Assembly (NCBI RefSeq): GCF_963675165.1
Contig: NC_087378.1
Coordinates: 6,505,205 to 6,569,204, forward strand
Direction: 5' to 3'
DNA length: 64,000 bases
From: Halichondria panicea
Taxonomy: Eukaryota > Porifera > Demospongiae > Suberitida > Halichondriidae
Below, piece after piece: positions 2,122 to 44,100 of the stretch (the stretch's first letter is position 1; every line of letters begins with the position of its first letter). The notes under the pieces were generated by a model. That model saw only the letters and a program-made list of their open reading frames with translations. It was not told the DNA's origin and searched no databases. Position numbers and translations under genes: made by a program.

Positions 2122-5100
2122 CTAATAATGCCTCCTCGTACATGATGGAGTACGTCCAGACCAGTAACCGTTACCCTGGCAAAATCGGACTGCATAACCA
2201 CTCAGCTGGTAGCCATTAAAACAGCCGTAGAATGCTTTGGAACCAGGTGTAGTGGTCCAGAACTTGACAATTCCGTAGCTTGGCTTGGGTGGACGGCCAC
2301 AGTCCACACCTGCATGTACAAATTGTAGTACAGATTATTTGTATACACTGCATGAGGGTTCATATAGGCAGGTCTGAACTGACAAAAATGCATGTAAATA
2401 TTGCTGTGCCTCCATCCCCATCAAAAGTGGCTAATTTTGCCTATCAAATGAGAATCAATAATTCTATGCATGGTAGAATGAGGTCAAATTAAAAATCGCC
2501 ACATAATCATACATGTACTTCAATTGCCTCATTTTTGTCGCTATATGGTATCTTATGAGAAATTTATCTAAATGCTTGTCACAAGTGGTGTAATCTGATT
2601 GTTTTACTGAGAGGTCCCTTATAAAATGCTTGTCACAAATGGTGCAATCTGATTTGGTTACTGAGAGGTCCCTTATTTCACTTAGAGACCTCAGCAGAGG
2701 TCTTCTACAGAGGTCCATTATATGTACTTGCCTAACTATGATACGTACGTTTACAAAGAGGTGCTTTTCCAGACCACTCTCCGTTGGCCTGGCACGTCCT
2801 CGTCGTTCCAAACAATGTGAATCCCTTGTTACAGGAATATTCGGCAGTGGAGGACGGAGTTAGACCAGTGACTGTCACCTGACCATACTCAGGGTCATCC
2901 AGCTTAGGACAGATGATAGCTGAATCAAAATGAGCAAACGGCATGTGATGTGAGGAAAACTTGCATTGGTATCTACATTTGATCCGATTGTAAAAGAAGT
3001 CATACCTTTGCAGATAGGTACCTCTCCAGCCCAGCTGCCGTCCTTCTGACAGAGTCTCTTGCTGGATCCCACCAACCTGAACCCATAGTTACAGGTGTAC
3101 TTTGCTATGGTTCCTGGCAGATTGTCTCCGTCATCCACAGATCCGTTCTCTGGATCCTTCAATGCAGGGCATTCGATCTCTGTACAATATGTTTCATAAC
3201 ACATGCAGTAAAGCAATTGTATAGTCTTACGTTCGCAGATAGGTGCATCCCCAGCCCAGCTGCCATAATTCTGACAGAGTCTCTTGCTGGATCCCACCAA
3301 CTTGAATCCATAGTAACAGGTGTACTTTGCTATGGTTCCTGGCAGATTGTCTCCATCATCCACATATCCGTTCTCTGGAGCCTTCAATGCAGGGCATTTG
3401 ATCTCTGTACGATATATTTTATAGCACATCCAGTTATCAAGCAATTGTAGTCTTACGTTCGCAGATAGGTGCCTCCCCAGCCCAACTGCCGTACTTCTGA
3501 CAGAGTCTCTTGTTGGATCCCACCAATCTGAATCCGTAGTAGTCACAGGTGTACTTTGCTATGGTTCCTGGCAGATTGTCTCCATCATCCACAGATCCGT
3601 TCTCTGGATCCTTCAATGCAGGGCATTCGATCTCTGTATGATATGTTTCACCAATTATTATCCTTTCCGTACAGCAATTGTAGTCTTACGTTCGCAGATA
3701 GGTGCTTCCCCAGCCCAGCTGCCATAATTCTGACAGAGTCTCTTGCTGGATCCCACCAACTTGAATCCATAGTCACAGGTGTACTTTGCTATGGTTCCTG
3801 GCAGATTGTCTCCATCATCCATATATCCGTTCTCTGGAGCCTTCAATGCAGGGCATTTGATCTCTGTACGATATATTTTATAACACATCCAGTTATTAAG
3901 CAATTGTAGTCTTACGTTCACAGATAGGTGCCTCCCCAGCCCAGCTGCCGTACTTCTGACAGAGTCTCTTGTTGGATCCCACCAATCTGAATCCGTAGTA
4001 GTCACAGGTGTACTTTGCTATGGTTCCTGGCAGATTGTCTCCATCATCCACAGATCCGTTCTCTGGATCCTTCAATACAGGGCATTCGATCTCTGTACGA
4101 TATGTTTCATAACACATGCAGTAAAGCAATTGTAGTCTTACGTTTGCAGATAGGTGCCTCCCCAGCCCAGCTGCCATAATTCTGACAGAGTCTCTTGCTG
4201 GATCCCACCAACTTGAATCCATAGTCACAGGTGTACTTTGCTATGGTTCCTGGCAGATTGTCTCCATCATCTACAGATCCGTTCTCTGGATCCTTCAATA
4301 CAGGGCATTCGATCTCTGTAGGATATGTTTCATAAAACTATTATCCTTCCGTAAAGCAATTGTAGTCTTACGTTCGCAGATAGGTGCCTCCCCAGCCCAG
4401 CTGCCATAATTCTGACAGATTCTCTTGCTGGAGCCCACCAACTTGAATCCATAGTCACAGGTGTACTTTGCTATGGTTCCTGGCAGATTGTCTCCATCAT
4501 CCACAGATCCGTTCTCTGGATCCTTCAATACAGGGCATTCGATCTCTGTACGATATGTTTCATATTCATAACACATGCAGTAAAGCAATTGTAGTCTTAC
4601 GTTTGCAGATAGGTGCCTCCCCAGCCCAGCTGCCATAATTCTGACAGAGTCTCTTGCTGGATCCCACCAACTTGAATCCATAGTCACAGGTGTACTTTAC
4701 TATGGTTCCTGGCAGATTGTCTCCATCATCCACATATCCGTTCTCTGGAGCCTTCAATGCAGGGCATTTGATCTCTGTACGATATATTTTATAACACATC
4801 CAGTTATTAAGCAATTGTAGTCTTACGTTCGCAGATAGGTGCCTCCCCAGCCCAGCTGCCGTACTTCTGACAGAGTCTCTTGTTGGATCCCACCAATCTG
4901 AATCCGTAGTAGTCACAGGTGTACTTTGCTATGGTTCCTGGCAGATTGTCTCCATAATCCACAGATCCGTTCTCTGGATCCTTCAATACAGGGCATTCGA
5001 TCTCTGTACGATATGTTTCATAACACATGCAGTAAAGCAATTGTAGTCTTACGTTTGCAGATAGGTGCCTCCCCAGCCCAGCTGCCATAATTCTGACAGA

Positions 5101-6478
5101 GTCTCTTGCTGGATCCCACCAACTTGAATCCATAGTCACAGGTGTACTTTGGTATGGTTCCTGGCAGATTGTCTCCATCATCTACAGATCCGTTCTCTGG
5201 ATCCTTCAATACAGGGCATTTGATCTCTGTAGGATATGTTTCATAAAACTATTATCCTTTCCGTAAAGCAATTGTAGTCTTACGTTTGCAGATAGGTGCC
5301 TCCCCAGCCCAGCTGCCATAATTCTGACAGATTCTCTTGCTGGATCCCACCAACTTGAATCCATAGTCACAGGTGTACTTTGCTATGGTTCCTGGCAGAT
5401 TGTGTCCATCATCCACAGATCCGTTCTCTGGATCCTTCAATACAGGGCATTCGATCTCTGTACGATATGTTTCATAACACATGCAGTAAAGCAATTGTAG
5501 TCTTACGTTTGCAGATAGGTGCCTCCCCAGCCCAGCTGGCATAATTCTGACAGAGTCTCTTGCTGGATCCCACCAACTTGAATCCATAGTCACATGTGTA
5601 CTTTGCTATGGTTCCTGGCAGATTGTCTCCATCATCCACAGATCCATTCTCTGGATCCTTCAATGCAGGGCATTCGATCTCTGTACGATAATTGTGTTTC
5701 ATAACACATCCAGTTATTAAGCAATTGTAGTCTTACGTTCGCAGATAGGTGCCTCCCCAGCCCAGCTGCCGTAATTCTGACAGAGTCTCTTGCTGGATCC
5801 CACCAACTTGAATCCATAGTCACAGGTGTACACTGCCTTGGTTCCGGCACGATTGTTACCATCATTCACAGTACCATATGCAGGGGGAGCCAGTTTAGGG
5901 CAGAAGAGTGCTGTACCAAAAACCAAAAAATATAATCTTTCACTGTTATTCACAATAGAAACAACCACTCACATTTACAAACAGGTGGAACATGGGACCA
6001 TTTCCCGTTGAGCTGGCATTTTGCTGTAGAGCTGCCTACGAGGGTGAAATGTCTGCCACAGGTATAGGTTGCCTTTGATCCAGGTGTATTTCCAGTCACG
6101 TCTACATCTCCATATTGGGGATCGATAAGGTCAGGACACGTGATACCTGCATAGAATGTATATAGCAGTTTGGGGTTATTAATGATTGCCCGTAAATTTA
6201 CTTAGTAACTCACGCTTGCCGCAAACTGGAGTGTCAAACTTCCACACTGCCTTTCTTAGGCTCCGGCTGTAGATACATTTGGTAAAACTGTATCCTTTCA
6301 GCAAAAAGCCATCTCTGCAAGAGAACCTAACAACAGTTCCAATTGAGTAGAAGTTTTTCTGAGGGTAGAAACTTCCGTAATCTGGAGTATCAGGGGGGCC
6401 ACAGGGAGAAAGGTAGGTAGCAGAGCTCAGATACACAAAGGACAGCACAACTGCAATCAACATCATAATGGACGCCAT
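2122..6478 (-). CDS. Secreted multi-sushi (CCP) protein, expanded copy (gene 1)
   Basis: A predicted extracellular protein built almost wholly of sushi/CCP modules. Exon 1 (6214-6478) starts MASIMMLIAVVLSFVYLSSA, a clear signal peptide, and continues into CCP1. CCP2 is 5973-6146 and CCP3 is 5737-5910. Twelve nearly identical modules of 174 or 177 nt follow (exons between 3006 and 5680), then 2750-2929 and a terminal exon 2122-2309 ending CTRRHY and a stop. Each module exon has phase-1 ends, four Cys and the W of a CCP (pattern C-P-A-L-K, Y-T-C, K-R-L-C-Q, W-A-G-E-A-P-I-C), flanked by about 50-bp introns with GTAAGA-type donors. About 17 modules in total. No membrane segment or enzyme domain is seen. 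CCP arrays usually bind proteins or glycans; the ligand here is unknown. The start is chosen at the methionine that begins the signal peptide; an in-frame one lies 21 nt upstream. Confidence 0.8.
3006..5680 (-). repeat. 12-module sushi exon array with ~910-bp higher-order repeat
   Basis: Twelve exon-intron units of about 227 bp lie head to tail at 3006, 3231, 3457, 3690, 3916, 4142, 4372, 4601, 4827, 5053, 5284 and 5507 (exon left ends). Variants recur every four units. The IKCPALKAPENGY type is at 3690 and 4601. The DYYGFRLVGSN type (3 extra nt) is at 3916 and 4827. The intron with TTCATAAAACTATTATCC is near 4327 and 5240. Spacing is about 907-913 bp. Introns are as similar as exons, which indicates recent unequal exchange or gene conversion rather than selection on protein alone. 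Confidence 0.9.
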
Positions 6479-9225: not shown

Positions 9226-9519
9226 ACTACATGTAATAAGGTTATACTGATAAGGCAACATTGATATGGCATCACTCTTATGGCATCACTCTTATAGCAC
9301 CGTTTTGTGTACATAGTCTTATAGAACGTACTTTATTTTTGGTGTTGCCTTATTACATGTATATACAATGTAGCTGCAGTTCTAAGAATTGTTCCATACA
9401 CTATGTTACTACAGCCAGTATATGTGACGTAAGATTGGAGGAATGCTTTTTGTGTACAGTCTATTGGAGTTGCGTTCTCTTCCTAATGAACTCTTGACTG
9501 TACTTATCCAATGCTATCA

Positions 9520-10486
<967 letters not shown>

Positions 10487-11459
10487 CGTATTCACCATCT
10501 CCATGCCTTTACCCACTTCCCCGTGTGACCCTCCCCCCAATGTTGTGGCCATTCTCAACAGCTGAAGCCTTATTAGCGGCATGGGGCTGTTCGCCAGAGC
10601 GTTACAGAATCAGCTACATCAATAGGGGCTTCAAAGTGTGTGCTTCCTACCCCCAGGATATCATTGTGCCTCTCTCAATAACTGATGATGAAATAAAAAA
10701 GGTGAGATCTAGGTGTGGTTGTTATATATTGTTAGAACTTCACAACTTGAATTAGGAAGGCCTCTGATTCATTCTGTAGGCTAAACTTTTAATTATTATT
10801 GCCAGGGACAACTTTTGGGAAATTTAGTACGTACTGATCACTACCTCCCCCCTCCAGAATGCTGGCTCCCTTAATAGGCAGTGCATATGACTAAGTGTGG
10901 TGTTTCTGTTTGTTGACTTCTGTTAGTCATAAACTTAAGTTGGGAAATCCCACTTTCGATGCCTTTTGTAGGCTAAGCTGTTGTTGTTAACCAGTATGTT
11001 CAAATTTCGTATAATGATCACTACCCCCCTCCAGAGTGCTACCTACCGTCACCAAGGGAGGTTCCCGATGGTGTGCTTCCATCATAAGAAGAGTGGGGCA
11101 GTGTTGATCAAATGTGGGCAGCCACTGGTGGGGCCGACCAGTAAGAGGTGTCGGGGAGATGTGAGTATTCTCAACACTTGTCTCCCTGGACTCAGCAAAG
11201 GGAAGGTCATGGACATACGCTCCCAGTCCATCGCACAGCAGCACATCGCACAGCAGCACATCGCACAGCAGCACATCGCACAGCAGCACATGAGTAAAAG
11301 TACAGGGTTTTTAGAATCTTTGCAACCTCAACGATAGGGTTGAGTGTTGAGCGTTCCTTACATGTGTGTATGGTGCAAAGCATTCCATATATAAGGAACA
11401 CTCAACCCTATTGTTGCTGTTGTAGATTCTGCAAAACCCTGTGTGTGTAAATGCCTATT

Positions 11460-14541: not shown

Positions 14542-17111
14542 CTAATAATACCTCCTCGTACATGATGGAGTACGTCCAGACCAGTAACCGTTACCCTGGC
14601 AAAATCGGACTGCATAACCACTCAGCTGGTAGCCATTAAAACAGCCGTAGAATGCTTTGGAACGAGGTGTAGTGGTCCAGAACTTGACACTTCCGTAGCT
14701 TGGTTTGGGTGGACGGCCACAGTCCACACCTGCATGCACAAATTGTAGTACAGGTTATTTGTATACACTGCATGAGGGTTCATATAGGCAGGTCTGAACT
14801 GACAAAAATGCATGTAAATATTGCTGTGCCTCCATGCCATCAAAAGTGGCTAATTTTGGCAATGCTATCAAATGAGAATCAGACGGTTCAATCATTGGTA
14901 GAATGATGGTCAAATTAAAAATCGCCACATAATCATACATGTACTTCAATTGCCTCATTTTACCGCTATATGGTATCTTGTGAGGAATTTACTATAAATG
15001 CTTGTCACAAATGATGCAATCTGATTGGTTACTGAGTGGTCCCTTACTTCACTTAAAAATGCTTGTCACAAATGGTGCAATTTGATTTGGTTACTGAGAG
15101 GTCCCTTATTTCACTTAGAGACCTCAGCAGAGGTCTTCTACAGAGGTCCATTATATGTGCTTGCCTAACTATTATGTAAACCTACGTACGTTTACAAATA
15201 GGTGCTTTTCCAGACCACTCTCCATTGTCCTGGCATGTCCTTGCCGTTCCAAACAACGTGAATCCCTTGTTACAAGAATATTCGGCAGTGGAGGACGGAG
15301 TTAGACCAGTGACTGTCACCTGACCATCCTCAGGGTCATCCAGCTTAGGACAGATGATAGCTGAATCAAAGTGAACAAACAGCATGTGATGTGAGGAAAA
15401 CGTATCACAGTTGATCCGATTGGAATGACTATCTATAGTTGATCTGATTGCAAAAGAAGTCATACCTTTGCAGATAGGTACCTCTCCAGCCCAGCTGCCG
15501 TCCTTCTGACAGAGTCTCTTGCTGAATCCTACCAACCTGAATCCATAATCACAGGTGTACTTTGCTACGGTTCCTGGCAGATTGTCTCCATCATCCACAG
15601 ATCCATTCTCTGGATCCTTCAATGCAGGGCATTCGATCTCTGTACGATATGCTTCATAACACATGCAGTTATTACATAAAGCAATTGTATAGTCTTACGT
15701 TCGCAGATAGGTGCCTCCCCAGCCCAGCTGCCATACTTCTGACAGAGTCTCTTGCTTGATCCTACCAACCTGAACCCATAGTCACAGGTGTACTTTGCTA
15801 TGGTTCTTGGCAGATTGTCTCCATTATCCACAGATCCATTTTCTAGATCCTTCAATGCAGGGCATTTGATCTCTGTACGATATGTTTCATAACACATGCA
15901 GTAAAGCGATTGTAGTCTTACGTTCGCAGATAGGTGCCTCCCCAGCCCAGCTGCCATAATTCTGACAGAGTCTCTTGCTGGATCCCACCAACCTGAATCC
16001 ATAATCACAGGTGTACTTTGCTATCGTTCCTGGCAGATTGTCTCCATCATTCACAGATCCGTTTTCTGGATCCTTCAATGCAGGGCATTTGATCTCTGTA
16101 CGATATGTTTCATAATACATGCAGTAAAGCGATTGTAGTCTTACGTTCGCAGATAGGTGCCTCCCCAGCCCAGCTGCCGTAATTCTGACAGAGTCTCTTG
16201 CTGGATCCCACCAACTTGAACCCATAGTCACAGGTGTACTTTGCTATGGTTCCTGCCAGATTGTCTCCATCATCCACAAATCCATTCTCTGGGTCCTCAA
16301 GATTAGGGCATTTGATCACTGCAAAATCATTCTGCTCTCATGACATACAAATCTTATGCTGTGTAAACATACATATGCAAGTTGGGGCTTTTCCACTCCA
16401 TGTACTATCCAGCTGACATTTCCTAGAGCTCTGCCCACTTATTTCAAAACCATCGTTACAGGTGTACACTGCCTTGGTTCCGGCACGATTGTTACCATCA
16501 TTCACAGCACCATATGCAGGAGGAGTCAGTTTGGGGCAGAAGATTGCTGCACCAAAAACCAAGAATACGATCCTTCTCTGTTATTTTCACAATAGAAACA
16601 ACCACTCACGTTTACAAACAGGTGGAACACTGGACCATTTTCCGTTGAACTGGCATTTTGCTGTAGAGCTGCCCACGAGGGTGAAACGTCTGCCACAGGT
16701 ATAGGTTGCCTTTGATCCAGGTGTATTTCCAGTCACGTCTACATCTCCATATCGGGGATCGATAAGATCAGGACACGTGATACCTGCATAGAATGTAGCA
16801 GTTTGGGGCTATTAATGATTGCCCGTAAATTCGCTTAGTAACTCACGCTTGCCGCAAACTGGAGTGTCAAACTTCCACACTGCCTTTCTTAGGCTCTGGC
16901 TGTAGATACATTTGGTAAAACTGTATCCTTTCAGCAAAAAGCCATCTCTGCAAGAGAACCTAACAACTGTTCCGATTGAGTAGAAGTTTTTCTGAGGGTA
17001 GAAACTTCCGTAACTTGGAGCATCAGGGGGGCCGCATGGAGAAAGGTAGGTAGCGGAGCTCAGATACACAAAGGACAGCACAACTGCAATCAACATCATA
17101 ATGGACGCCAT
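14542..17111 (-). CDS. Secreted multi-sushi (CCP) protein, short copy (gene 2)
   Basis: A paralogue of the gene at 2122-6478 with the same order but about nine modules. Exon 1 ends at 17111 with the identical signal peptide MASIMMLIAVVLSFVYLSSA and CCP1. CCP2 is near 16613-16787. The distinct CCP3 (AIFCPKLTPPAYG, 16373-16546) follows, then modules at 16145-16318, 15922-16095, 15699-15872 and 15466-15639. The IICPKLDD module starts at 15190 and the terminal VDCGRPPKPSYG exon ends in CTRRYY and a stop. All splice signals look usable and no internal stop was seen. It lies head-to-head with MTMR9, about 1 kb apart. It probably approximates the pre-expansion state of gene 1. Confidence 0.8.
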
Positions 17112-18129
17112 GTTTGCAAAAGTGATGGTCAAGTCAGTGTTTGTGTGTGTGTGAGTAGAAGACTTTTATAAAACTTGAACAGGGTGTTGTCTGAGCTGAG
17201 CTAGTGGTGTTGTGTATACGGTCAAACTGAATGGGTTCTCACATATTGCAAACTGAGTGTCACCAAATTATGCTTACAAAGTGTTTAGACTTGTGGGCAT
17301 GTGTTTAGGGTGTGGTGTTGTAAGTGCACTGTGTTTGTAACCCTAACTTAAAACTTTGCACTCTTAAATCCAGCAGGGAAGTAACCTGACCAGAAACAGA
17401 ACTCCTATTGTTGTGGCCTTAGATTGTGGTGTAGAACCTGTAGATCTATATTAGCTGCAAACATATAATTGTTGGGTATAGCTTAACCATAAACACAGTG
17501 CACTTACCACTGTTATTTAAAGCTTCATCAAAGGACGTTTTTAATTATTAAACACGTCAGAAGTGCATCGTGAGATGCGCGAAAATTATTATTATTATTA
17601 TCTTTTCAGTGGTACTGAAAAAAATTCAAGTATTGGTAAAATTAAGTGAGAATAAGTAGATAATAGTAATAGTGACTCGATCTAATAGCCCTATTCTCAC
17701 TTTTTTGAAAATTTTGTTTAATGGGTTGGTGTATGCAAAAATTACAAACTGGTCTCACCATATAAATTATGCTTACAGAGTGTTTAGACTTGTGGGGCAT
17801 GTGCTTGTGAGCAAGATTAAACATCAACGCTTTGTCTTTAATAATAGTTCTTTGTGACCAATTTGTGGTGTATATTAACTGCAAACAAGGCTTATTGTTG
17901 GGTATAGCTTGACCACAAACAATTAAGTGCACTTACTTACCACTACTATAGACTACTAGCATGCACATGCAATATGCACTGTAGTGTGACTGTCGACTAG
18001 CTTCTTCTTCCCCACTCCCTGTCCAGCCACACCTACCTCCCTTTTGCCAAAAGTTTTGGGTGCAGAGTTCACGCAATGCATACTCAAAGGGCGTGGTTAA
18101 TTGAGATGCGCTCCAGTTGGAAAACAATC

Positions 18130-35461: not shown

Positions 35462-37784
35462 CTAAGTGCCATACTGATTCCTAGCCAAGGCTGGAGGCAG
35501 TTTACTAAGAGTGTCAGTCCACGATCTCTCTACTAAAACCAGTTCCTTCCCTCCAAAGGGTCCCGCAAACAACACCGCTCCTCTGTTCGACGTTACAAAT
35601 CGTAATCGAAGTGGTGGCCCTTCAAACAATCTCTCTTTTCTCTTTCCTTTGCTACTGCTTTCTTCTATGGTCTCTTTCGCCTGTGAGCCACCGCCACGTA
35701 CAAGCACAACACAGTCATTATCATACACAGCAAATACGTCTTCTCTTTTTGGAACTTGTACTAGACCATTCGGGGAGGACAACTTGAAACGGCCTTCGTA
35801 TTTTCTATCCAAAGCAACGTATCCAACCACCTTCAAGTGCTTGTCAGCAAACTTGAACGAGCAAAGTGTTTTTTCTGCACCTATAAATAGAACGAGACTA
35901 TCGCATGATCGAGTGAACGTAAACAGTGTAGGTCCAGGGTCCAGTCGAGGCACTTTACACATTACATCACCAGATTCAAGGTTACAGATGATTATTCGCT
36001 TTGTGTTACTTGAGAGTGCCACCAATTTACTATCAGAGCTGACTTCAAAATTTGTGAAGGGTTGATGTGGTTTAGCCTTAGCTTGGATAGTTCTTGCATT
36101 CTCCGTATCGAATTTCGATGTATCAACAACTTTGACTCCACTGTCTATTGTGGCAAGCACCAGGTATTGGCCATCTGGAGTGAACCCCATTTTGTAGCAT
36201 GGGAACTGTGTCTCCTGCACACAAACAACGTTTAGATTTCTGTGGTTGATATTGTATAGCCACAGGCGATCAACAGTCGATAAGGCAACATTGGTAGCAT
36301 CAGCTGACATGGTACTGCTCAGAATGTGTTGAGGTTCTTTGCACTTGATCTCAAGAAAGTTTTTCGGGACACCATTTGTACAGTGAGGTAGTGGAGCTGG
36401 GATGCTCTCTTGAACATTCACCTCACCAATCGACGAGAGGCTTGTTTGGGGGGACTGATCTCCACGATCCCCATTACTGGTAGGGAGAGATTCAGTAGCG
36501 GAGGCAGTTGACTTGAGCCTGTGTTGGATACTCAATTGCCAGAATCGTAGCGACATACTGCTTTGATGAACCAGAACGTTGGCACTGTTAGCGACTGTGA
36601 AAAATCGAGAGCTGTCGGGGATAGGGTGATGTCTGTTGATGGCCTTAATGTCGAGGCTACTTGTTGGGCACGTTATGAGCTGAGTGTCGACACCTCCAGA
36701 AGCTATCAGTTGGGTATTGGAGAGAGCTAGAGCTCTGATATCGTGAGTGTGTGCTCGTACATTTTCACATTTAAGCCACTTGCTTTTGTCAGATGCTTTC
36801 TTGAGACAAACTATTTTCTGATCGACACCAGCTGAGTAGATTTCATTCTCTTCTTTGTTGACAGCCAAACTGAGCACATCAGCACTGTGTATGGTGTGCG
36901 AGTGAATAAGGGTGCCTTGCCGACTATTCCAAAACTGAACCTTCCCGAGAGAATCGGCACTTACAATTGTCGAATTGCTCAGAAATTTGAGATCCCAAAC
37001 TAGCGTGTTCCGTGATTTGTACTCATCAAGCGTGATTCGTAGGATGCAGCGACCGGTTTTGATGTCTAGTTTCCGTATAATGCTGTCAGCCCCTCCTACC
37101 GCCATGTACTGACTGTCGGGGTGCCAAGCAAGGGAGAGGACACGCCCTTCTTGTTTGTCCAACCCACGGCTGAAGGAGAGGGAGCCAGAGGAGAGCTCAA
37201 ACAAACGTACCTGCAGAGAGAAACAAAGAGCATTTAAAAGTATAAACCAAAATTCACAACGCTTATTAACTATAAGAAATTAGAATACTTATAGTGCTAG
37301 AAATAAATGCCACAATGCCCCACCCACTTTATCTCATGGCAGACAATTTTTGATCTTACCTGGCCATCTTCTGATCCTACTGCCAGCATTGATCGCTCAG
37401 TGTTGGGTTGCATACACCATACAGCTCCTCCGAACGAGTCTATGGAGTGGAGAGGTCGCAGCCGAACCAGGTCCCATTCCAGTACAATACCTACAGAGAG
37501 CTTACTATAACAAACAATCCATGACAGTTTGTCCAGCTACCTGTGACCCCAGATGTGAAGAGCCTCCCAGAGCACCACACAAGGGTCTCCACAGAACCAT
37601 CAGCTCTTCCTGGAATCCATACATCTTTGAAGAAACATTCTCCATCAACGGTCCGCCATATCTCAATGCTACCGTCTCCACGCGATACTGCCAGTTGAGG
37701 AGAGCTTGAAGACTCATCCGAGAATGCCAAGCAGTGTATTGGCTGGGGCTCGTGCTCGATAAAACGAACTCTGTGAACATCCAT
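35462..37784 (-). CDS. UTP4: UTP4/cirhin, WD40 ribosome-biogenesis factor
   Basis: Three exons (37541-37784, 37360-37490, 35462-37210) close into 707 codons; human cirhin is about 686. It begins MDVHRVRFIEHEPQPIHCLA and runs through successive WD40-type repeats (LAVSRGDGSIEIW, LAVGSEDGQVRLFE, MAVGGADSIIRKLDIKTG, LKFLSNSTIVSADSLGKVQF and others), forming the two-propeller arrangement of UTP4. Known UTP4 belongs to the t-UTP/UTPA subcomplex of the small-subunit processome in the nucleolus and is needed for pre-18S rRNA transcription and processing. A poorly conserved Ser/Thr-rich insert (TESLPTSNGDRGDQSPQTSL) separates the halves. It faces RPS21 across 161 bp. Confidence 0.93.
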
Positions 37785-37945
37785 AGCTGCCTAGCTAGCT
37801 CAGCAGCCACGTGGTTGACACTGCACTGCGCATGCTCATAACCAAGGAAAAACACGTGGTCGATCTTTTCCTTGGTGGCTCCAGAAAGTAGAACTCTTTT
37901 AGAGACACTGTGAGTATATATATAGCTTTGTGACCAGTTAGAATT
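37785..37945. promoter_or_regulatory. Divergent promoter shared by UTP4 and RPS21
   Basis: Only 161 bp separate the two start codons. The spacer holds an NRF1-like palindromic core CTGCGCATGC (37825-37834), two CACGTG E-boxes (about 37809 and 37853) and an imperfect palindrome ACCAAGGAAAA...TTTTCCTTGGT (about 37842-37877). No TATA box is obvious. The motif roles are inferences from vertebrate promoters. Confidence 0.6.
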
Positions 37946-38481
37946 ATGCAGAACGAGGCAGGAGATGTTGTGGATGTCTACATTCCAAGAAAATGGTAAT
38001 CTCATGATGGAAACTAGCAAGAATTGTGATTAAATGATCTCTCCTCCAGCTCCGCTAGTGGGAGGATCATAGGAGCCAGGGACTATGCCTCTGTGCAGCT
38101 CAACATTGCTGATGTGAGTAGGGACTTCAAATCATCATTAGAGGCTCACGCATAAATAAACTATAGCACCATTAACCTCTGTCATGTCGTGTTTTAATAG
38201 TATGTAATCTCTCACTTCTCAGGTGGATGAGAAGACTGGTCGAGTGTCTGGAACGTTCAAGACATACGCTGTCAGTGGCTTCATCAGAGCAATGGTAAAT
38301 AATAAAAGTATGTGACGAACAATCTTGTCCACCCACACACCACACCCAGGGTGAGAGTGACGACTCTCTAAACAGACTTGGTGTTAAGGATGGCATTATT
38401 GGAGGGTAGGTCACATAGTAGTGTTGGTGTTTTATTGTAACCCTCTCTTTCCTCCCCTGCAGAGAACAAACACAGAACTAA
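37946..38481 (+). CDS. RPS21: 40S ribosomal protein S21
   Basis: Five small exons (37946-37995, 38050-38113, 38223-38294, 38350-38405, 38463-38481) give 86 residues, close to the 83 of human RPS21. The sequence starts MQNEAGDVVDVYIPRKCSAS and includes RIIGARDYASVQLNIADVD and GESDDSLNRLGVKDGIIGG, all family hallmarks. It is a component of the small ribosomal subunit. The last intron is a 57-bp GT-AG intron after GIIGG. Its tail faces the homeobox gene, 162 bp away. Confidence 0.96.
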
Positions 38482-38643: not shown

Positions 38644-40239
38644 CTATATACAAACAGTTCCAGAGTTGTTGGGTAGAGATTGATTTGTGGTAGGGACGAC
38701 AAGGCCTGATGTTTGTATCTCCAGGAACCCTGGGTTAACGGTCAGTGGGTACTCAAAATTACCATCACTGGTGTCTTTATTGGAGGTCACTTCTTTTGAT
38801 CGATCGCGTTTGCTTTTCAGACGATTCTTGAACCACTCCTCTGTCTGCAAGAATAGATATGCATACCTCCAATAAATCAACTGACACATTCAACCATTGA
38901 TTACCCCACCCTTTCCACTGCCTCTATGGTGATGGGATACTCGGTGTCACCCTCACTTTGCTTCACAGCGGCCCGCTCACTTTTTCGACGCTCATTCAAG
39001 AGCTTATCCTTCTTGCGACGGTTCTTGAACCACTCGTGTATCTAGAGTGCAAGGAAAGGAGTTCAAACAATCATCATTTACAGTGTTACATCTATTCAAA
39101 ACTATTTATTTATTAAAAAAATAGTCGCCTGAGGCTAACTGAGGGGTGGTCATCAATAAGAGTAACTGCACCACGCAATCCACACCTTATACATGGAGAG
39201 TCCAGTGATTCTGGCAATCCTCTCCTTCTCTGGCTGCCCCTCCTTGCGGAAGTTCTTGGCCATGATTTTGCTGACATAAGCAACCTCCAATACCTCTCTG
39301 ATCTCAGGCGTCAACGGTGTCCTGCAAAGCAGAGCAGAGAATGAAATACTAAGCATGGAAGCTTTACGGTCATAGCAAATAAACACTACTTCAAGGAGCG
39401 ATCTGATCACACACTAGCTATAGATAACCAGACTAGAAGCAAGCCACCCTAGACAAACGACAAAAGGCATAACTGACTCTATGCTAAACGGTACTGTGCA
39501 AGCACTCCCTAGAACTGCTAGACCCCATGAACACACACCTGGCATGCCTCACTCCACCAAGATGGTAGTGCCAGCCTGTCTTCTCTTTGGGAGGTTTTGT
39601 TCGAGGACGACCCACTTTTGACTTCTTAGCTACATCCTCCTCTGATGTAGCTTGGCTCTCAGTGGTTGCTACAGCAATGGTCACTGTAGAGTGCTGTCTA
39701 GAGCTGCTACTCGATGATGTCCGTGGCCGAGTGACCACACCCACCTCTTTGCTTGACAATTGAGTGAATTGTTCCACCTGTACACACATCAATTCTCATT
39801 ATAGTCTATAACAACATCCAGCAGCTTTCATTGAAGGCTGATCTAGCATGCAGTTTCTATTGGGGGGGAACATAAGGTAACATAACAACTGTACGTACAC
39901 GGGGAAAAGGTTGTGTTAGGTGGTAGGTACAATGAGTTTAATAATCCTAGTAAAAACACCATAGAGTTATAGGCTCTCACTTCCTGCATGCAAACACAGA
40001 CACTGCCTATACAGATAACCACCTGTAGTTTAGGGATGACCTCGAGTGAGTCTATGTTGCTAAGCATTTCAGCGAGAGAAGAAGAGCCAGATTCCATGTT
40101 GAGGATATTGTCTTGAGTTGGCGTGAGGTGTGTGGTGGTGGTGGTGATGGCAGTGTTACCGTGTGGAGCTGTCGTGTGGGTGTGTGTAAGATGTGGGGGG
40201 TGGTCAGACAATGACAGGTTTTGGGGTGTGAGATTCATC
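38644..40239 (-). CDS. Atypical AT-hook homeodomain protein with duplicated recognition-helix exon
   Basis: Coding exons on the minus strand: 40023-40239 (MNLTPQNLSLSD..., from an ATG just inside a CAG acceptor, so an upstream exon exists), 39539-39777 (AT-hook-like KKSKVGRPRTKPPKEK), 39186-39321 (homeodomain helices 1-2, LTPEIREVLEVAYVSKIMAK to ITGLSMYK), then exon a 38901-39041 (IHEWFKNRRKKDK) and exon b 38644-38844 (TEEWFKNRLKSKRD). Both a and b encode helix 3 with W48, F49, K50 and N51, both start in phase 0, and both end in a stop. The loop between helices 1 and 2 is about six residues longer than in the 60-residue standard, so the class is unclear; not TALE by sequence. Presumed nuclear DNA-binding regulator. 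Confidence 0.8.
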
Positions 40240-40374: not shown

Positions 40375-40995
40375 CTTTGCCGACACAGCACACAAGTTTC
40401 CTACCTTTATCGCATCAGAAATTGAATTCTTTATTCCGTGACCCTTTTCTTTGCAGTAAAGATCATCACACAAGTTTCCTACCTATCTCATCAAAATAGA
40501 ATTCTGTATTCCCGTGACCCTTTTCTTTGCAGTAAAGATCATCACACAAGTTTCCTACCTCTATCTCATCAAAATAGAATTCTGTATTCCCGTGACCCTT
40601 TTCTTTGCAGTAAAGATCATCACACAAGTTTCCTACCTCTATCTCATCAAAATAGAATTCTGTATTCCCGTGACCCTTTTCTTTGCAGTAAAGATCATCA
40701 CACAAGTTTCCTACCTATCTCATCAAAATAGAATTTTGTATTCCCGTGACCCTTTTCTTTGCAGTAAAGATCATCACACAAGTTTCCTACCTCTATCTCA
40801 TCAAAATAGAATTCTGTATTCCCGTGACCCTTTTCTTTGCAGTAAAGATCATCACACAAGTTTCCTACCTCTATCTCATCAAAATAGAATTCTGTATTCC
40901 CGTGACCCTTTTCTTTGCAGTAAAGATCATCACACAAGTTTCCTACCTCTATCTCATCAAAATAGAATTCTGTATTCCCGGATCCTTTTCCTTGC
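40375..40995. repeat. 78-bp tandem repeat upstream of the homeobox gene and ELP3
   Basis: Seven near-identical units of 76-78 bp, each with CCCTTTTCTTTGCAGTAAAG, ATCATCACACAAGTTTCCTA and CTCATCAAAATAGAATTCTG, plus decayed units on both edges. All three frames in each direction stay open only because the unit length is near a multiple of 3. It fills most of the 0.9-kb space between two divergently oriented genes. Not coding. Confidence 0.9.
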
Positions 40996-41130
40996 AATCA
41001 TCACACAAGAAGTTTCCACCTTATCTGATCAGAATTGTTCCAGGACCCCTTTCCTTGCATGCACAGTAAAGATCTCAACAGTCTGATCAGAATTTAATTC
41101 TTAACCTCTCGGAGTGTGATCTGTGCTGCT

Positions 41131-44100
41131 ATGGGGAAGACCAAGAAGAAAGGTGATCTGCTTTAATAGACTGATTTACATTAATACCACACAGTTATTC
41201 ATTATGTGATGGCCCTCTATATAAAAGGTCGAAACCACTCCTTTTCTTTTAGGAAAGAGACTGGGCCAGCTGCCGTGTTGAGAGTTGTCCCCAGTGCGTG
41301 AACATTCTTCACGCTCCCACAAGAATGCAAACGTGCAAACGTCACAAATGCTCGTTCCACCGCCCACACGCTAACTATTGCAAGCCTTGAGTATATACAC
41401 ATCACTGGTGGTCTTTTATCGAGGTTAAAAGTAATATCACCCACGCATATTATGTACTTTGTGGTTTGTACTGATTGCATTCCAACGGGACAACTCTCAA
41501 CACGGCAGATGGCCGCCAGTCTCTTTCCCCCAAAAAGGGAGTGGCTGCTCAAGTCTAGGTTACCCTATTACTTAGACTTTACCATTAGTAGAAATAAGGC
41601 CTACATGCATGGCTATTTTGGGTATTAAAGGATCAAATGCCGATTAGGTAATCACGTCTCATGTTACCCTAACACAGAGGGGGAGGGACTACCAGTGGCC
41701 GAGCGTATGATGATGACCGTGGCTGAGATAGTGAAGCTGTTGATACAAGCCCATCACGAAGGGAGGGACGTTAACCTCAACAAGTGAGTCCCATGGCAAC
41801 ACAGTGGTCACTGAGCCTGGGTTAGCAACACCACCGTGCACAGCGGTCACTAAGCCTGGGTAGCAACACCACCGTGCACAGCGGTCACTAAGCATGGTAG
41901 CAACACCACCGTGCATAGTGGTCACTAAGCCTGGGTTAGCAACACCACCGTGCACAGTGGTCACTAAGCCTGAGTAGCAACACCATCGTGCACAGTGGTC
42001 ACTAAGCCTGGGTAGCAACACCACCGTGCACAGTGGTCACTAAGCCTGGGTAGCAACACCACCGTGCACAGTGGTCACTAAGCCTGGGTAGCAACACCAC
42101 CGTGCACAGTGGTCACTAAGCCTGGGTAGTCTCATGAATCAGCCGCCCTTCCACGGAGGTCTGTCTGAGCACTTTAGTACAAACTTTTTTGACCAGGTTA
42201 GAATTCCGACCTAACCCAATCAGATCAAAATTAAGAATGACAAGAAGCGTATGCGTTCTATACAGTAGGACGCATTTATAGCTAGCGCTAGTCAGTCTAA
42301 CTATGGATACTGTTAGCCGATCAAGGAGCTATAGTAAGTTGAGTTGACTGCACTATAGCTAGTCCTGTGCAACCTTTTTCTTTTTCTTTTAGGAACGTTC
42401 TTGGAGCAAGCCAAATAAAAATTCATAGATGCTAGTCAAGCGTTTGCGGTTGACCTTTTGCATGCGTTGGAAGTAATGGAATTCTTTTGGTTTTGACACT
42501 GACGTAGTGGACTAAAGTGCTCAGACTGAAAGGGCGGCTGATTCATGAGACTAAAGCCTAGACTCGCTGGCCACTCCCATCATCACTATCTTGAGGATTG
42601 GGACTGGTCAACTGCCAATCTGCGAGTTGTTCTTGTGGAATTTTAATTAGTTGTATGACATCATTTTGTGGTTTGTGCGGTTGACTAAAGTTGCGTAACT
42701 ATCAGGTGAATGTGGGTTATGTCCCGTGGTTTATCTAATACAACATAAGACCCAGCCCAACTACAACGAATTACGTGGGCGAAATATGTCACATGACAGT
42801 GCTTCTGCACTGTGATTGGTCATTACCGATTTCGGTATAATGAGAACAACTCGCAGATTGACAGTTGACCAGTCCCAATCCTCAAGATAGTGATGATGGG
42901 AGTGGCCAGCGAGTCTAACTAAAGCCTGGGTAGCTTACACTCATACTTCAACTTGTAATAATTTTACACTTAGTGTTTGTACTTTGATCATCCTACAGAC
43001 TCAAGGGTCAAGTGGCCAGCAAGTATGGACTCTCCTCTCAACCGCGACTGGTCGACATCATTGCAGCTGTTCCCCTGGCCCACAAGAAAACACTCCTCCC
43101 TAAACTGAAGGCCAAACCGATCCGCACTGCATCCGGTATCGCTGTGGTAGCAGTCATGTGCAAGCCTCATCGCTGCCCGCACATCACATTCACAGGCAAC
43201 ATCTGTGTGTGAGTAATTAGATTACACATACTCGTATAATTATGTGGCCTCAGAGATGATGAAAACATTTCCTCTTTAGGAGTTGTGGGCGTTGTGGGCA
43301 CTTTAAGGTAATGTTTTTTCCAGGAAATTGTGTGAGCAATTAGTTCTTAGTCCTTTGAAGAATCAATGACCCAAAATGCAACAGCTGCTATGTTAGAGTG
43401 GGTGTTCTGACTACATGTTCCAATTATGTGTGGGACTGTTCTAAAATGTCCCTTAAGGACATTGTGTAAAGTAATTATCTCTATTCCCAATGCCCCACCC
43501 ACCTCAGCTATTGCCCTGGGGGACCCGACTCTGACTTTGAGTACTCCACTCAGTCATATACTGGCTATGAGCCCACCTCCATGAGGGCTATCAGGGCACG
43601 CTACAATCCCTACCTTCAGGCAAAGCACAGAATCGAGCAGGTGCTAAAATTATGCAATAATAGGGAAAGGACTTTTATGAACGTACACGTATAGACAAGT
43701 TTTATGGGGTGCTGTTTTTGGTTAGTGGTGAAATATTCAATTGATGCTTGTAAGTCTTCAACTTGAGCCTTTGTGTGGACCGTATGTGTCATATATAATT
43801 ATGAGAGGTGAATACCGTATAGCGCGAAATTTTCGAGGCACTTATATTTCGTGGATTGGCCTCTAAAAGTATTTTCGTTGCACAATGTTCGCGGAATGAC
43901 TGCTTACCGGAAGCCACGCCTTTAAATCTTGCACGTTATAGCAGGTAAAGAACGATTTTCGTGGACTTAATTTTCGTGTAGGATTGCTACCCACGAAATC
44001 CACGAAAATTAAGCCCCTCGAAAATTTCGCGCTATACGGTAGCCAAAATTATGTTTAGTTGGCGGCGGTGGCTTAGCCTCGAATATGTTACTGTGGCCGT

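Follow-up and report, generated by a model that had tools for sequence, protein, structure and literature searches.

Exchange of DNA-binding segments through duplicated exons is already known: in TCF3/E2A, mutually exclusive exons of the basic helix–loop–helix (bHLH) region each supply a DNA-binding segment to the forms E12 and E47 (passages of PMC5852603), and in FOXP1 a DNA-binding segment is exchanged by the choice of exon 18 or 18b (passages of PMC11701043). Pax2 comes from a gene class to which homeobox genes also belong, and its isoforms differ in a recognition helix through splicing (passages of PMC4488758); Homothorax, a single homeobox gene, gives forms with and without the homeodomain (title of Noro 2006, cited in PMC7392893). 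Each of these differs from the locus described here, a homeobox gene of the demosponge Halichondria panicea in which two possible last exons each encode a version of homeodomain helix 3 (that is, the recognition helix). TCF3 is a mammalian bHLH factor, and the passages of PMC5852603 describe no pair of stop-bearing terminal exons; FOXP1 carries a forkhead domain and its exchange changes the motif, whereas the present gene retains the residues that read bases and would lose contacts to the backbone; Pax2 splicing inserts residues into the recognition helix of the paired domain and leaves homeodomain helix 3 in place; and in Homothorax the entire homeodomain is removed, with no duplicated helix exon mentioned in the passages of PMC7392893. 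Among the papers on homeodomain splicing listed from the open-licence literature, covered mostly through titles and the beginnings of abstracts, we found no case in which the recognition helix of a homeodomain is exchanged by splicing.

The gene lies on the minus strand of the window (the whole stretch of DNA analysed, 64,000 nucleotides), and has three common exons followed by the two possible last exons, here called a and b:

40023..40238, minus strand: exon 1, predicted by reading the sequence, with the ATG at 40238 and the donor CAG/GTGGTT (score 2.22)
39539..39777, minus strand: exon 2, predicted, with the basic stretch VGRPRTKPPKEKTGWHYHLGGVRHAR and the start of the homeodomain arm
39186..39321, minus strand: exon 3, encoding the first two helices of the homeodomain and ending in phase 0 after its residue 44
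38901..39041, minus strand: exon a, recognition helix IHEWFKNRRKKDK and a tail ending in DTEYPITIEAVERVG, 46 codons before the stop TAA
38644..38844, minus strand: exon b, homologous helix TEEWFKNRLKSKR and a tail containing NFEYPLTVNPGFLE, 66 codons before the stop TAG
38845..38909, minus strand: possible 65-nt intron from a to b, with the donor AGG/GTGGGG after 38910, joining the two in frame

Exon 3 closes with the codons LSMYK at 39186 in phase 0, and helix 3 is completed by either a or b. Spliced in silico, exons 1–3 plus a (form A) encode 243 amino acids and exons 1–3 plus b (form B) encode 263, and a product in which a and b are joined would have 307 amino acids, in frame. The junction of exons 1 and 2 is the least certain in the gene (acceptor score −0.70). 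A preliminary description had proposed two alternative phase-0 exons after LSMYK, each with its own stop, and its coordinates, phases and stops were correct. Directly downstream on the same strand lies a WD-repeat protein gene (35465–37790), of which a 605-amino-acid frame (35465–37279) matches WD40 families and which we take to resemble UTP4; between the two, on the plus strand and convergent with the homeobox gene, is a gene for ribosomal protein S21e (RPS21; 37946–38409), whose product, with exons joined by eye, scores 120.7 bits against PF01249. On the other side, just upstream of exon 1, is a tandem array of a 78-bp unit (40389–40996; 7.9 copies, 96% matches), and a second array, of a 38-bp unit in 8.7 copies, occupies 41800–42129.

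The homeodomain of this gene is divergent and atypical, judging from its sequence. Form A passes the homeodomain profile PF00046 (29.2 bits against a cut-off of 22.9) and form B falls under it (17.4 bits against 22.9). Neither exon a alone nor exon b alone matches the profile; single exons score too low, so the gene is absent from the genome's 28 homeodomain hits. Homeodomains are near 60 residues long, with some known classes longer, and TALE homeodomains are marked by an insertion of three residues in the loop. Here, when the protein is aligned with homeodomains from this genome, helices 1 and 2 in exon 3 are separated by about six additional residues, and the KN profile PF05920 is matched at 21.0 bits against a cut-off of 24.0, neither of which fits the TALE class. 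A search of PDB sequences returned 63 at E up to 1, and the best 60 of these 63 were mostly homeodomains of several classes, led by the double homeobox protein DUX4 (E = 3.5e-4); one enzyme among the matches listed was plainly unrelated. The 131-Mb genome yielded no close paralogue, the matches other than the gene's own exons being weak (E of 0.04 or worse in one search and of 0.4 or worse in a second), and the protein of exon 3 plus exon a (91 amino acids) had no relatives in genome_contigs or viral_contigs, two collections without kin of this genome. Nothing in the window matched Rfam.

The recognition helices of the two exons differ in a patterned way. Exon a carries W48, F49, N51 and R53, all four named as highly conserved in helix 3 in a passage of the review PMC5575656, and exon b keeps W48, F49 and N51 and has L53. 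At positions 47, 50, 51 and 54 the two exons encode the same residues (E, K, N and K), and the differences fall at 45 (I in a, T in b), 46 (H/E), 53 (R/L), 55 (K/S), 56 (D/K) and 57 (K/R). Elsewhere in the genome, all 26 homeodomains read have R at 53 and V, I or L at 45, and 25 of the 26 have K or R at 55; they come from 27 genes, drawn from at least 28 homeodomain hits (two neighbouring C8 hits being taken as one gene), in all of which helix 3 could be read except L027, where none was found. Aligned in this way, T45, E46 and L53 of exon b, reported in the preliminary description, are correct. The fixed residues R53 and V/I/L45 in 26 of 26 homeodomains support a choice of acceptors that would separate a binding from a weakly binding helix.

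The mechanism that we consider the most likely, with about an even chance of being right, is such a choice, yielding a form A that binds DNA and a form B that binds weakly or serves as a decoy. In this divergent homeobox gene the last exon would have been duplicated in tandem, and both copies would have stayed in use, competing as 3′ splice sites for exon 3. Use of the proximal acceptor at 39041 would give form A, with a complete homeodomain and a normal recognition helix, and a skip to the distal acceptor at 38844 would give form B, in which E47, K50, N51 and K54 would be kept, core position 45 would be T, and R53 and K55 would be missing. Form B would then be a partner of A that binds DNA weakly or not at all, with the N-terminal region in common and a similar tail (EYPITI in A, EYPLTV in B), and would dampen A or work through partners. 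Alongside the anatomy, homology, intact frames, ordinary splice sites and residue pattern observed here, we infer that both mRNAs are made, that their products differ in DNA binding and that the difference has a regulatory role. That the gene sets its DNA affinity by terminal-exon choice, one locus giving both a transcription factor and a built-in competitor or DNA-free partner, we hold more tentatively, at somewhat less than an even chance. If both forms are made, splicing would swap the recognition helix of a homeodomain, in an animal lineage that probably branched early, the intron at residues 44/45 could act as a swap point, and a natural pair that varies backbone and core residues while holding the base-reading residues constant would make the role of R53 directly testable.

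The duplication of the last exon is genuine, and each copy retains an intact frame. The earlier claim that homology runs past the helix stands: with the first 14 residues removed, the tail score of a against b (common block EYP[IL]T[IV]) was reached by none of 2,000 shuffles. Over 43 aligned codons the exons differ at 61 of 129 nucleotides and have 15 identical residues, and when neutral drift was simulated to the same 61/129 differences, a stop arose in 4,437 of 5,000 runs starting from a and 4,454 of 5,000 starting from b, with stop-free drift that kept at least 15 identical residues seen in 20/5,000 and 8/5,000 runs, respectively. The differences spare EWFKNR (one difference in six codons; 374 of 20,000 codon-order shuffles were as extreme), although local gene conversion could also be the source of the alike codons. 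The tail homology, the drift simulations and this sparing support the choice between acceptors, and there is moderate evidence that both copies were kept under constraint. Differences per site over the 43 codons are similar at synonymous and non-synonymous positions (0.518 and 0.461), so that, taken over their whole length, the exons are not strongly constrained. The openness of b over 66 codons is by itself weak evidence, such a frame being open in 421 of 9,546 background windows, and its codon usage is unremarkable, 61 of those 421 scoring at least as high. The pair is homologous, neighbouring and compatible in phase, as would be expected of mutually exclusive duplicated exons.

These same data bear on the possibility that exon b is a relic, that is, a terminal exon duplicated long ago whose copy now lies within the 3′ untranslated region (UTR) of the a-form and is spliced rarely or by noise. 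We consider this unlikely, although a number of observations fit it: b has lost R53 and the hydrophobic residue 45 that all 26 other homeodomains keep, as well as the K or R at 55 kept by 25 of 26; form B falls under the Pfam cut-off, as a decaying copy would; the a-form could end at the AATAAA within b; and codon usage in b is ordinary. The unremarkable codon usage, the near-equal rates of synonymous and non-synonymous difference, the Pfam score of B and the possible gene conversion at EWFKNR also count against the choice between acceptors as a whole. The relic is opposed by the intact 66-codon frame, by an ordinary acceptor and by residues conserved beyond what neutral drift would leave.

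The splice sites and the 3′ end are compatible with the use of either exon. Scored with simple donor and acceptor matrices, the acceptors of a (4.17) and b (3.79) each beat 9 of the 13 calibration acceptors, all from introns read by eye, which comprise those of five introns of RPS21 and the WD-repeat gene and the eight helix-3 acceptors of split homeobox genes. Both are thus ordinary for this genome (the preliminary description had called them good), and the intact frames, phases and stops together with these two acceptors support a choice between them. Three sites could serve as poly(A) signals:

38776..38781, minus strand: AATAAA inside exon b, which could be a poly(A) signal of the a-form
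39105..39114, minus strand: AATAAATAAA in the intron between exon 3 and exon a, with AATAAA twice (39114 and 39110), a possible intronic poly(A) signal
38431..38436, minus strand: AATAAA downstream of both exons, a candidate shared poly(A) signal just past the convergent RPS21 stop

The stretch that separates the stop of a from the acceptor of b contains no AATAAA. Given that AATAAA lies in or after b, and not between a and b, the choice would be one between two 3′ splice sites, and the a-form probably reads through b as 3′ UTR or ends within b. Early polyadenylation at 39105–39114 would give a third form that is devoid of helix 3. The stop of RPS21 lies close to the candidate shared signal, on the opposite strand.

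A single mRNA that includes both exons, through the donor at 38910 and the 65-nt intron, is a further rival, and one that we regard as rather improbable. Its 307-amino-acid product would consist of a normal homeodomain followed by an isolated second helix-3-like segment and a second EYP tail. The preliminary description had noted a weak donor after a that could join a to b. The in-frame join is indeed possible, but the donor is not unusually weak: it scores 3.80 (a percentile of 0.016 at a score of 3.8), within the range of 0.19–6.89 of five donors of the neighbouring genes, which also contain introns of 50, 54 and 55 nt. The joint mRNA is therefore a stronger rival than had been suggested, and this usable in-frame donor speaks against a choice between acceptors. 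However, two more donors in exon a, after 38981 (3.40) and 38957 (3.84), are of similar strength and would put b out of frame, so that the donor at 38910 is not special, and exon a has its own stop three codons further on. W48 and F49 would moreover be needless in an isolated helix 3, yet EWFKNR is the best conserved part of the pair; constraint on these two residues in b would be best understood if its helix packed against helices 1 and 2, as it would after a direct join of exon 3 to b.

Residues 47, 50, 51 and 54 are the base-reading positions of homeodomains. Since these are the same in a and b while 45, 46, 53 and 55 differ, b is probably not a second DNA code; it would rather keep the face that reads bases, along with some of the core, and lose its grip on the backbone with the phosphate-contacting R53, and the simplest reading is that form B would be attenuated or non-binding. 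That a and b confer two different DNA-binding specificities, the stronger of two outcomes envisaged in the preliminary description, we consider very improbable: positions 45, 46, 53 and 55–57 do differ and exon swapping in FOXP1 alters specificity (passages of PMC11701043), but the identity of the main base-reading positions argues against it. The other outcome, a binding form with a decoy, accords with the differences in backbone and core residues.

We also considered an RNA hairpin that could hide exon a by pairing the pyrimidine tract before it (39042–39095) with the end of the exon (38878–38930) on the minus strand, and we keep it as an idea only: its energy of −32.8 kcal/mol was matched by 1 of 500 shuffles and 2 of 424 window positions, for a pairing picked after a fold was seen; of 325 acceptors at least as strong as this one, 5 reached the energy at fixed geometry, this one included, and 31 (probably including this one) when the offset was left free, so that with a free choice of partner it is not significant. 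Taken as a whole, the region has no more stable a fold than its shuffled versions (z = −0.72; 22/100).

Returning to the choice between acceptors, further support comes from the rest of the genome. The exons of the gene map to a single place in the assembly, and none of the eight other homeobox genes split by an intron near this position and scanned with a relaxed pattern over about 8.85 kb each (8 of 10 fetched loci, leaving out L027, for want of a helix 3, and L028, which has helix 3 in the same exon) has a second helix-3 exon; the unique exons and the single helix-3 exon in 8 of 8 genes favour that choice. L020, L022 and L025 each gave one more match to the pattern, none of which looked like a homeodomain helix by eye. 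Among the genes checked, a duplicated helix-3 exon is thus not general in this genome. Paired-box hits in the genome comprise one strong gene (two neighbouring exons, C11) and five weaker ones at 26–27 bits, just over the cut-off; a passage of the review PMC4901127 gives a single Pax gene for sponges and placozoans. Elsewhere in the window, similar open frames are repeated on the minus strand at 2467–5605 and 15185–17165, of which 15185–15694 matches the sushi repeat PF00084, and at 9498–10508 a CA/GT dinucleotide repeat of about 1 kb contains long open frames by chance.
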